In this document: positions 38,705 to 56,731 of the stretch, one piece after another
Position numbering within the stretch: the stretch's first letter is position 1
Layout of the letters: every line of letters begins with the position of its first letter
Assembly (NCBI GenBank): GCA_945860385.1
Contig: CAMAQD010000001.1
Location: 62,001 to 126,000, forward strand
DNA: 64,000 nucleotides
Source of the DNA: Flavobacterium psychrophilum
GTDB taxonomy: Bacteria > Bacteroidota > Bacteroidia > Flavobacteriales > Flavobacteriaceae
Reading direction: 5' to 3'
The notes under the pieces: generated by a model
Told to the model about the DNA's origin: nothing
The model's database searches: none
The model's input: the letters and a program-made list of their open reading frames with translations, nothing else
Translations under genes and position numbers: made by a program

Positions 38705-38717
38705 AAAAAAATAAAAA

Positions 38718-39025
38718 AAGCAGACCTATAAGCCGGATTCTGTCCCCAATAAATTGGAGCCTTATCATTTATCTAGGCACGAAATTGCTCGCGTGCTCCA
38801 TCTTTCTACCCTTCGACAACGGGCGAGAACCCTTAAATGCCGATATACTTGAAATTTCACCGCATAGAGTTTACCTGGTTTCACTACAGCATTACCTGTA
38901 CATACTTTCTGTTGCACTTGTCCTAATTCCGATAAATCGGAACCGACGGGCGTTACCCGCTATGCTTCTCTGTGGTGTCCGGACTTTCCTCCCCCGACGA
39001 GCGGGGACGATAAGGCGGTCTGCTG
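38718..39025 (-). ncRNA. rnpB: RNase P RNA
   Basis: The reverse strand holds the conserved core of bacterial class A RNase P RNA: 5' AGCAGACC pairing with 3' GGTCTGCT (P1), GAGGAAAGTCCGGAC (CR I), CACAGAGAAGCATAG, ACGGGTAACGCCCGTC stem region, GTGAAACCAGGTAAACTC, and 3' ACAGAATCCGGCTTATAGG (CR V). About 308 bases. A run of T on the RNA strand follows the P1 3' arm. It processes tRNA 5' ends with RnpA. Ends are placed at P1 and could be off by a few bases. Confidence 0.95.
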
Positions 39026-39028
39026 TGC

Positions 39029-41344: not shown

Positions 41345-42430
41345 ATGGAACAATTTGTAGTATCGGCTCGTAAATATCGTCCACAAACCTTTAATGATGT
41401 TGTGGGACAAAAGGCTATTACCAATACTTTGTTGCACGCCATAGAAAGCAATCACTTGGCTTCTGCCCTATTGTTTACAGGTCCTCGAGGTGTTGGAAAA
41501 ACAACTTGCGCCCGAATTCTTGCCCGGAAAATCAACCAACCAGGTTATGACGACCCGAATGAAGATTTTGCTTTCAATGTTTTCGAATTGGATGCTGCTT
41601 CAAACAATTCTGTTGATGATATTAGGAATTTGATTGACCAAGTTCGAATTCCGCCACAAACTGGACAATACAAGGTTTACATTATTGATGAGGTTCATAT
41701 GTTGTCTTCGGCAGCTTTTAATGCGTTCTTGAAAACATTGGAAGAACCGCCAAAACACGCCATTTTTATATTGGCCACGACCGAAAAACACAAAATTATT
41801 CCGACGATCCTTTCTCGTTGCCAGATATTTGATTTCAAAAGAATTACCGTCAAAGATGCTAAAGAACATCTTGCGGAAGTGGCTTTTAGCCAAGGCGTAA
41901 ATTGCGAAGACGATGCTTTACATATTATTGCTCAAAAGGCCGATGGTGCAATGCGTGATGCTTTGTCAATTTTTGACAGAGTGGTTTCCTATTGTGGTAG
42001 TAACTTGACACGTCAAGCTGTTACCGAAAACCTGAATGTGCTGGATTATGAAACTTACATCACGGTCACCGATTTGATTTTAGAAAATAAAATCCCGGAA
42101 TTATTAATCACTTTCAATGATATTCTTTCCAAGGGATTTGATGCACATCATTTTGTTTCAGGATTGGCATCGCATTTTAGGGATTTATTGGTTTCAAAAA
42201 CTCCTTCGACATTATCCTTATTAGAAGTTGGCGAACAGGCCCAAAAATTATATGCTATCCAATGTCAAAAAGCATCACAGGATTTCTTGTTGAAAGGAAT
42301 TGAAATTGCAAATGACTGCGATTTGAAATACAAAGTGAGTCAAAACCAGCGACTGCTTGTTGAACTTTGCTTGATGCAACTAGCCTCCATCACCTTTGAT
42401 GGAGAAAAAAAAAAGTTGACCCATTTATAA
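41345..42430 (+). CDS. dnaX: DNA polymerase III gamma subunit (zero-frame product of dnaX)
   Basis: The zero frame encodes 361 residues: GPRGVGKTTCAR (Walker A), VYIIDEVHMLS (Walker B), ATTEKHKIIPTILSRC (sensor 1 and SRC motif), and the collar domain ending LVELCLMQLASITFDGEKKK. It then stops at TAA 42428-42430, five codons after a run of ten A. The Zn ribbon usual between Walker A and B in Escherichia coli DnaX is not evident. The end point lies at the domain III/IV border, which is where gamma ends in other bacteria. The tau-like remainder is open in the -1 frame (42412-43101). Programmed slippage or a sequence error could explain this. Confidence 0.9.
   Translation: MEQFVVSARKYRPQTFNDVVGQKAITNTLLHAIESNHLASALLFTGPRGVGKTTCARILARKINQPGYDDPNEDFAFNVFELDAASNNSVDDIRNLIDQVRIPPQTGQYKVYIIDEVHMLSSAAFNAFLKTLEEPPKHAIFILATTEKHKIIPTILSRCQIFDFKRITVKDAKEHLAEVAFSQGVNCEDDALHIIAQKADGAMRDALSIFDRVVSYCGSNLTRQAVTENLNVLDYETYITVTDLILENKIPELLITFNDILSKGFDAHHFVSGLASHFRDLLVSKTPSTLSLLEVGEQAQKLYAIQCQKASQDFLLKGIEIANDCDLKYKVSQNQRLLVELCLMQLASITFDGEKKKLTHL
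42385..42414 (+). promoter_or_regulatory. Candidate dnaX frameshift/slippage signal (hairpin plus A10)
   Basis: An 8-bp perfect stem CTCCATCA / TGATGGAG (42385-42392 and 42397-42404, 4-base loop) is followed directly by ten A (42405-42414) and then GTTGAC. Zero frame stops at 42428. The -1 frame has a stop just before the run (TGA 42397-42399) and is open downstream to 43101, so switching must happen within the A run. RNA polymerase slippage or ribosomal -1 shifting are both possible. Confidence 0.6.
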
Positions 42431-43101
42431 TTCCACCCACATATTTTAGGAGAACCGATTATTCTATTGTTGAAGCAAAACAGATTGCAGATAGCAGAAA
42501 GCAGTCGGCAGAAGTCAGTTTGCAGAATACAGAATTAAAGCCAGAAGTTGCTGAGCCAAAAATTGAAATTAGCAATTCTGATGTAGTTGGTTCAACTGAA
42601 ATCCAAAATCCAAAACCACCAACTACAAACCTTCCCGAAGGACCCAAATTTTCTGCATTGTCTCTTTCGAGTATTCGTGCCAAAAGAGAATTACTGGAAA
42701 GCACCAGAGGAATTGTAAAAGAAGAAGTTCATCTTCCTACAGAAGCTTTTAACGAAACCGATATGTTGTTGCAGTGGAGCAAATATGCACAACGTTTAGG
42801 GGATAGAGGTCATAAAATAATGGAATCCCTTTTGTTGATTGGTGACCCAAAATTAGAAGGCACAAAAATTACTCATGAATTGCCAAACGATAGTACAAAA
42901 ATTGAATTTGAATCTGAAAAATTCGAACTTTTGGGCTATTTAAGAGGTAAACTTCATAATCATGATATTACCATTGATGTTGTTGTGAATGAAAAAGTAG
43001 AAAATAAATTTGCATTTACACCTAAAGATAAATTCAATAGGTTGAACGAAATTAACCCAAATTTAGAGTTATTGAAAAAGACTTTTGATTTGGATATTTA
43101 A
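42412..43101 (+). CDS. dnaX: Tau-like C-terminal part of DnaX (reached by -1 frameshift)
   Basis: The -1 frame opens at the A run and continues as K-V-D-P-F-I-I-P-P-T-Y-F for 229 residues. It has a Pro/Glu-rich linker (KQIADSRKQSAEVSLQ...), then RAKRELL, LLQWSKYAQRLGDRGHKIMESLL and an ELL...LHNHDITIDVVVNE C-terminal domain like flavobacterial tau subunits. It has no plausible independent start: the first TTG at 42520 lies within the linker. Joined to residues 1-356 it gives 585 residues, a normal length for this group. It is therefore the C-terminus of DnaX, not a separate gene. Confidence 0.8.
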   Translation, partial: KVDPFIIPPTYFRRTDYSIVEAKQIADSRKQSAEVSLQNTELKPEVAEPKIEISNSDVVGSTEIQNPKPPTTNLPEGPKFSALSLSSIRAKRELLESTRGIVKEEVHLPTEAFNETDMLLQWSKYAQRLGDRGHKIMESLLLIGDPKLEGTKITHELPNDSTKIEFESEKFELLGYLRGKLHNHDITIDVVVNEKVENKFAFTPKDKFNRLNEINPNLELLKKTFDLDI

Positions 43102-43114
43102 AACTCAAAAAATT

Positions 43115-43165
43115 ACCGCAGATTCGCAGATTTTAAAATTGATTAAAAATCTGCGAATCTGCGGT
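43115..43165. terminator. 20-bp perfect inverted repeat between dnaX and ppx (bidirectional terminator)
   Basis: ACCGCAGATTCGCAGATTTT (43115-43134) pairs perfectly with 43146-43165 around an 11-base loop. Lying between convergent genes, it probably terminates both. The word CGCAGATT resembles intergenic repeats of this genus. Confidence 0.75.
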
Positions 43166-55942: not shown

Positions 55943-56731
55943 ATGAAAAACAATTTCATTTACCTAGCTATTTTAGTAAGTTTGTTTTCATTGTATTCTT
56001 ACGCTCAAAATGCAAGTACTTTTAAAATTAATAAAAAATTAGAAGTAGCTCAAAAAGAATCTGATACTTTCATTACTATTAACCCAACCCACATAAAAAC
56101 TATAAAATCGTACCACGTTAAAGAAAATATTAATCAAAAATTTGGCGGATACACAACGTCTTATGAGGTTTCTGATTTGAACTTAATCTGTTTTTATGAT
56201 TTGGGTCCAAACAATTCAAGAATTATAACTCCTCATTATGGAGTAGTAAGACAAATTCCTCTTAAAAAAATTAAACTCAATAAAAACCTTTTAAAATCAA
56301 CAAATCTATCTGATTTGGTACTAATTAACAAAACCAAAACAGAACCATTATCAACAAATATTACCATAGCGTGTCTCGATGAAGCAGAAAAAGAAGTTAT
56401 TGCTGAGGATAAGAATTCAAATAAATCCATTAATAGCGAAAAATATACCTACATACATATCATTAAAACCTATGAAAGAATCGCTGAAAAAGGGTGCAAG
56501 TCTGTAGAGATTTTTCAAAAATTAGGCGATGCCTTTTTTTTTGATGGTGATTATGTAAAAGCGGTAAAATGGTATGGCGAATTATTTAATATGACTACGG
56601 ATTTAGAATCTGAATATTTTGAACGATACGCCTATTCTTTGAGAGCAATCGGTAAAAAAGAAAAAGGAAATGAAATAATAAAATTACTCCAGCAACTATC
56701 TAGTTTAAAAAAAAATAAAACCTATTTATAA
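55943..56731 (+). CDS. Truncated OmpA/TPR paralogue lacking the PD40 and OmpA domains
   Basis: A 262-residue exported protein (signal MKNNFIYLAILVSLFSLYSYAQ) with a unique middle (about 25-165) and then a TPR-like region (about 170-250, YERIAEKGCKSVEIFQKLGDAFFFDGDYVKAVKWYGELF). That region matches the N-terminal TPR of the OmpA/PD40 protein encoded just upstream. It stops right there: no PD40 or OmpA part follows, and the next 15 bases lead to the convergent M1 gene. The middle segment is seen, as I recall, in longer flavobacterial OmpA paralogues. I infer a 3'-truncated relic or a short regulatory derivative. Confidence 0.75.
   Translation: MKNNFIYLAILVSLFSLYSYAQNASTFKINKKLEVAQKESDTFITINPTHIKTIKSYHVKENINQKFGGYTTSYEVSDLNLICFYDLGPNNSRIITPHYGVVRQIPLKKIKLNKNLLKSTNLSDLVLINKTKTEPLSTNITIACLDEAEKEVIAEDKNSNKSINSEKYTYIHIIKTYERIAEKGCKSVEIFQKLGDAFFFDGDYVKAVKWYGELFNMTTDLESEYFERYAYSLRAIGKKEKGNEIIKLLQQLSSLKKNKTYL

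Follow-up and report, generated by a model that had tools for sequence, protein, structure and literature searches.

The dnaX gene described here lies in a 64,000-nucleotide window, the whole stretch of DNA that was analysed, of a Flavobacterium psychrophilum contig, and is divided between two reading frames at a run of ten A residues (Table 1). The zero-frame ORF carries PF13177 and PF22608 above the Pfam cut-off, scores 377.8 bits against TIGR02397 (cut-off 250), and around the run reads GGA GAA AAA AAA AAG TTG ACC CAT TTA TAA. It closes at codon 361, as the first-pass annotation had stated; the annotation's description of this stop as lying five codons past the run needs a small correction, the stop being the fifth codon after the one that contains the last A. 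The same annotation was right about the perfect 8-bp hairpin whose last stem base immediately precedes the run, about the A_AAA_AAG heptamer contained in the site, about the -1 frame, which is shut by a TGA and is then open from the run to position 43101, and about the joining of the two frames by a run of 8 or 11 A. A second TGA, which closes the +1 frame shortly after the run, was absent from it.

Table 1. Features of the dnaX locus, in window coordinates
Feature	Position	Strand	Remarks
dnaX zero-frame ORF, gamma-type product, 361 aa	41345..42430	+	ATG 41345, stop TAA 42428-42430
8-bp RNA hairpin CTCCATCA/TGATGGAG, loop CCTT	42385..42404	+	final base immediately precedes A run
TGA closing -1 frame upstream of A run	42397..42399	+	sequence reading
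A10 run, proposed slippage site	42405..42414	+	next base G
A_AAA_AAG, zero-frame phase, site for rival ribosomal shift	42409..42415	+	sequence reading
tau C-terminal part, -1 frame, 228 codons and TAA 43099-43101	42415..43101	+	NF011531 match, codon-position differences
TGA closing +1 frame (A9 mRNA) shortly after run	42417..42419	+	sequence reading

The two pieces of the gene are matched in order by the DnaX profile NF011531 (614 positions), with profile positions 1-370 corresponding to zero-frame residues 1-357 (607 bits) and positions 409-613 to tail residues 20-228 (78.3 bits, E 5.7e-22); taken singly, both pieces fall short of the profile cut-off of 685. The tail has no Pfam match, and its differences from 29 other loci fall at codon positions 1, 2 and 3 in the numbers 1882, 1629 and 3273. 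Judged by the profile match and this codon-position pattern, the -1 frame tail is a genuine tau C-terminus, in agreement with the first-pass annotation. A separate start for the tail was considered and rejected, since at 144 of 147 Flavobacterium-clade loci no ATG, GTG or TTG occurs in the tau frame within 10 codons of the run. The motif I-[IVL]-[PTSI] stands right behind the run at 137 of the 147 loci, the remaining 10 having VIP or LIP.

Other features of the window can be recorded briefly. Two terminator-like stems (CTGCGAATCTGCGG) lie on opposite strands at 43116-43164, between dnaX and a convergent Ppx/GppA-family gene. An ORF at 55943-56731 has no Pfam match and contains T9 (56534) and A9 (56707) runs, which could slip too, and the minus strand has Rfam matches to the Flavo-1 RNA (1393-1473) and bacterial RNase P RNA (38713-39026).

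Alignment of close relatives, the check that the first-pass annotation had proposed, gives a consistent picture of the run. In the set made up of the window and its 80 best matches (out of at least 591), the run is A10 in 76 of 81 loci, A9 in two and A11 in three, and the zero frame ends at codon 357-361 in 76 of 81. The outcome that the annotation had named as refuting its reading, a continuous frame with a broken run in all relatives, is not what the relatives have, as only five loci are continuous (596-607 codons) and all five retain A10. Among the matches listed, two Flavobacterium genomes are 98% identical to the window in the N-terminal part of dnaX, and both have the identical A10. Six metagenome bins among these matches (L014, L022, L031, L033, L041 and L053) have a dnaX 90-93% identical to that of this Flavobacterium under the titles Rhizobium, Chitinophaga, Sphingobacterium or Bdellovibrio, which look wrong.

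The wider comparison comprises 224 dnaX genes sampled at three levels, the genus Flavobacterium, the order and the phylum; they form 87 clusters at 80% identity. GATGGAG followed by exactly ten A occurs in 283 of 348 Flavobacterium genomes (matches not checked per site); of the 65 genomes without the pattern, 59 had a dnaX match and 56 loci were read. In the order sample 88 of 99 genomes had a match and 87 loci were read, one partial match being left out, and in the phylum sample 116 of 118 had a match, of which 13 were already in the set, 57 gave new loci that were read, and 46 were left out. The sequence of L244 ends before the run, L081-L088 were excluded from the counts as duplicates or off-target, and the 147 clade loci include one pair, L077 and L255, identical over 1000 nt.

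Runs were sought only within codons 335-410, where at least eight A residues stand in a row at 201 of the 224 Bacteroidota loci (70 of 87 clusters), and none of that length was found at the other 23 (L191, L193, L196, L197, L203, L205, L206 and L208-L210 among them). Of the 201 runs, 144 are A10, 35 A9, 15 A11 and 4 A12, with A8, A13 and A14 found once each. A run at this place is more common than chance would give: elsewhere in the dnaX coding sequence, runs of at least nine A number 0 in 145,491 bases of 87 Flavobacterium-cluster loci, all of which carry the run, and 23 in 336,673 bases of all 201 run-bearing loci. The tau frame at these 201 loci is frame 0 in 79, -1 in 117 and +1 in 5. Because the run is kept while the tau frame varies, the run is the constant of the system and the default product is what changes.

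The hairpin in front of the run is more stable than its composition or its peptide would lead one to expect. A 43-nt segment of the window folds at -11.6 kcal/mol (z -3.85, with 0 of 200 shuffles equally stable). A stem of -4 kcal/mol or lower ends 0-1 nt from the run at 122 of the 147 Flavobacterium-clade loci. These divide into 87 from the general sample (92 loci) and 35 from the 55 loci selected because they lack the usual 3' arm; the gap is 0 nt in 109 of the 122 and 1 nt in 13. Counted by stem class, 10 of 18 have an abutting stem, as against 6.5% of control positions, and 8 of 18 do not, although binomial and Fisher values on such classes are too strong because the classes share ancestry. 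Mean hairpin stability over 23 representatives, hand-picked from the stem classes plus variants, peaks where the segment ends -2 to +1 from the start of the run.

Codon choice across the hairpin is constrained to match. Among 339 eight-codon windows, the one at codons 347-354 is under the strongest constraint (86 of 87 Flavobacterium-cluster genes, ungapped), and the preferred codons for Ala, Ile and Ser (TCT or TCC in 84 of 86 cases for Ser) supply exactly the pairing bases. Where Ile is replaced by Val (GTC), Asp is GAC in place of GAT (L241, L242, L248, L249); ATT is paired with AAT in L095 and L252-L254, or kept with GAT as a G-U pair in L042, L055, L072 and L074. The stem has been rebuilt as CGTCTTTA/TGAAGGCG in L257, L258, L265 and others, and as GGC-TCAT/ATGA-GCC in L260-L264 and others, and it is lost in L255, L276, L280, L283-L289, L292 and L293. 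Over all 94 distinct sequences, 23 cells are changed on both sides with pairing kept, as against 7.2 +- 2.3 in shuffles, and the covariation score is 0.160 as against 0.114 shuffled and at most 0.078 when slid, shuffle controls that are too strong because related sequences share ancestry; one base pair is the source of most of the double changes, and two of five covariation measures on the 94 sequences have no excess over shuffles. On 82 of the 94 the corresponding values are 20 vs 4.7 +- 1.9 and 0.186 vs 0.124, but 7 of the 12 sequences omitted there come from the hairpin-less group, and the figures for all 94 are preferred.

A phylum-wide hairpin was rejected, as stems abutting the run are hardly more frequent than chance would give once the Flavobacterium cluster is set aside (best 5% of positions in 7 of 69 clusters). 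On the sequences compared, the hairpin is thus a feature of the clade and not of the phylum. Strong single stems occur elsewhere: L148 (Flavobacteriales, G028) has a 14-pair hairpin of -25.0 kcal/mol, unrelated in sequence to that of Flavobacterium and adjoining only A8, which may represent the same design arisen independently, and others are found in L151, L126 and L133.

We consider it probable that transcriptional slippage is programmed at this site, acting on A10 and, in the Flavobacterium clade, raised or tuned by the hairpin. RNA polymerase would slip on the run to give dnaX mRNAs with differing run lengths. The A10 and A9 mRNAs would yield a short gamma-type protein, because stops shut both frames within five codons, and A11 or A8 mRNAs, with one A more or two fewer than A10, would join the frames and yield tau. 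Gamma would thus be the default product and tau that of slipped mRNA, which is the division of labour that the first-pass annotation had put forward and which is the best-supported reading of the locus. The RNA-DNA hybrid of RNA polymerase spans 9-10 bp (PMC5009743). With the RNA end at the ninth or tenth A, the hybrid would consist of A throughout and could realign, and the nascent hairpin could close directly behind it, a geometry like that of an intrinsic terminator with A replacing U. Slippage itself would not need the hairpin, since 8 of the 18 clade classes are without it and its frequency outside the Flavobacterium cluster is near chance. What the sequences themselves show is the anatomy of the site and how it is conserved, the homology of the tail, the placing of the stops, and the constrained codons and covariation at the hairpin. 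That the slip takes place during transcription, in what ratio it would divide the products, and how the hairpin would act, we infer from the sequence, which is compatible with a hairpin that favours either insertion or deletion.

One alternative is that tau arises by -1 ribosomal frameshifting at A_AAA_AAG, with the roles of the two Escherichia coli products reversed and the longer run incidental. The heptamer is in phase, Lys at position 357 is encoded by AAG in 81 of 83 cases (14% expected), a preference that a ribosomal shift would favour, and reversed ribosomal shifting is described for dnaX of a few bacteria (PMC5009743). Six A would suffice for such a shift, however, and the run has at least nine, and a ribosome at the site would probably cover the adjoining 5' hairpin. 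Furthermore, in 52 of 70 clusters the +1 frame closes no more than five codons from the run, as against 22.1 expected from the same genes (0 of 100000 simulations), and both non-tau frames are closed within six codons at 163 of 200 loci, as against 16% by chance. Nor is there a downstream stimulator of the E. coli kind: in structure percentiles, where low values mean structure, the 50 nt downstream of the run stand at 0.98 in the window, and the mean is 0.79 for the Flavobacterium cluster and 0.52 for 69 clusters. Tau lies in the +1 frame at 5 of 201 loci (7 of 147 in the clade), beyond the reach of a -1 shift, but these few could be errors in run length. Differing shift directions among homologues have been taken as a mark of transcriptional realignment (PMC3711429); together with the excess of +1 stops, irrelevant to a -1 ribosomal shift, and the lack of downstream structure, they favour slippage. 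The A9 loci are weakened as proof against a ribosomal shift, because no more than 2 of the 7 GATGGAG-A9 hits in the 348 genus genomes lie at dnaX. For Flavobacterium johnsoniae, poor shifting at the prfB motif and rare use of Shine-Dalgarno sequences have been reported (PMC12421855). Taken together, this evidence makes ribosomal frameshifting an unlikely source of tau.

Slippage on A10 could also be real and the hairpin have another role, such as making RNA polymerase pause but not slip, stabilising the mRNA, or re-forming behind the ribosome. Many Bacteroidota runs have no abutting hairpin, and neither do some groups within the clade (L276, L280, L283-L288; L292, L293), yet the stem stays 0-1 nt from the run through changes in sequence and register, and we regard a separate role as unlikely. 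It is highly improbable that the hairpin is a by-product of codon bias and the peptide ASITFDGEKKK, well conserved in the clade as that peptide is, given that only 0.3% of synonymous shuffles match the window hairpin in stability, that Ala is GCC in 73 of 78 cases and Ile ATC in 81 of 86 (26% and 22% expected), and that the stem carries paired changes on both sides. The occurrence of A9, A11 or A12 at 17 of 147 clade loci might suggest a contingency locus, with phase variation by changes of DNA length, but A10 stands at the other 130, and tau is expected to be necessary in every cell, which makes this scarcely credible. Homopolymers are prone to sequencing error, and the first-pass annotation had kept a base error in the run as its alternative; the same A10 and split in independent genomes, with a conserved tail, contradict it, and for the clade error or pseudogene formation is refuted as the cause of the split, leaving it next to no probability in the window.

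The site can be compared with several known systems. A 2013 survey with GeneTack (PMC3711429) called the two-ORF dnaX a novel organisation and proposed a transcriptional mechanism; 9 of its 17 two-ORF genes have 10 A at the junction. As in that type, gamma is here the zero-frame product and tau would follow from -1 recoding at a poly-A junction, with the N-terminal ORF and the tail in another frame meeting at one conserved place, and the difference is that the accessible text of the survey mentions no hairpin for dnaX. In Thermus thermophilus, slippage on an A run yields gamma and tau, and both other frames are closed by nearby stops (PMC1088944, PMC5009743); the present locus likewise has a run of at least nine A and nearby stops in both non-tau frames, but the Thermus run is of 9 and tau is the zero-frame product there. 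An RNA hairpin directly 5' of a slippery run, in terminator-like geometry, is found in a Roseiflexus IS transposase, where it is reported as needed for slippage, although that is a mobile element with a T5C5 run that loses one C (PMC5009743); a predicted hairpin occupies the corresponding position here. The insertion sequence IS1447 similarly has a nine-A run behind a predicted stem-loop, with slippage measured there in both directions, but two A residues of its run lie inside the stem, whose role was left unsettled (PMC6211511). E. coli dnaX shares the in-phase A_AAA_AAG and the common N-terminus of gamma and tau (PMC5009743, PMC3711429), but has tau as the default product, a downstream hairpin and an upstream Shine-Dalgarno stimulator; here a GGAG (42401-42404) upstream of the heptamer doubles as part of the 3' arm of the stem.

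The reversal with respect to E. coli, which the first-pass annotation had pointed out, is supported but is not new, as the arrangement and the slippage mechanism were both proposed in 2013 (PMC3711429). The new part appears to be the hairpin, which the annotation had described without interpreting it and which evolution keeps rebuilding before the A run: no description of it, or of its covariation, was found for dnaX in the open-licence literature searched, in which hairpin-stimulated slippage is otherwise described solely for insertion sequences. There is also a consequence for annotation, as RefSeq recorded a programmed frameshift for 0 of the 17 two-ORF dnaX genes of the 2013 survey (PMC3711429). 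The clade contains natural variants in which the stem is kept, re-paired, shifted or lost, and these offer a ready series on the effect of a hairpin on RNA polymerase realignment. Tentatively, and with slightly more doubt than conviction, we suggest that this terminator-like module of hairpin and homopolymer in an essential gene could be a slippage switch that sets the amount of tau, is rebuilt by compensatory evolution as the protein drifts, and makes the gamma:tau ratio depend on the conditions of transcription, for example the ATP level. If so, a housekeeping replication gene would be using hairpin-stimulated slippage across a genus-level clade, and the composition of the replisome would be set during transcription.
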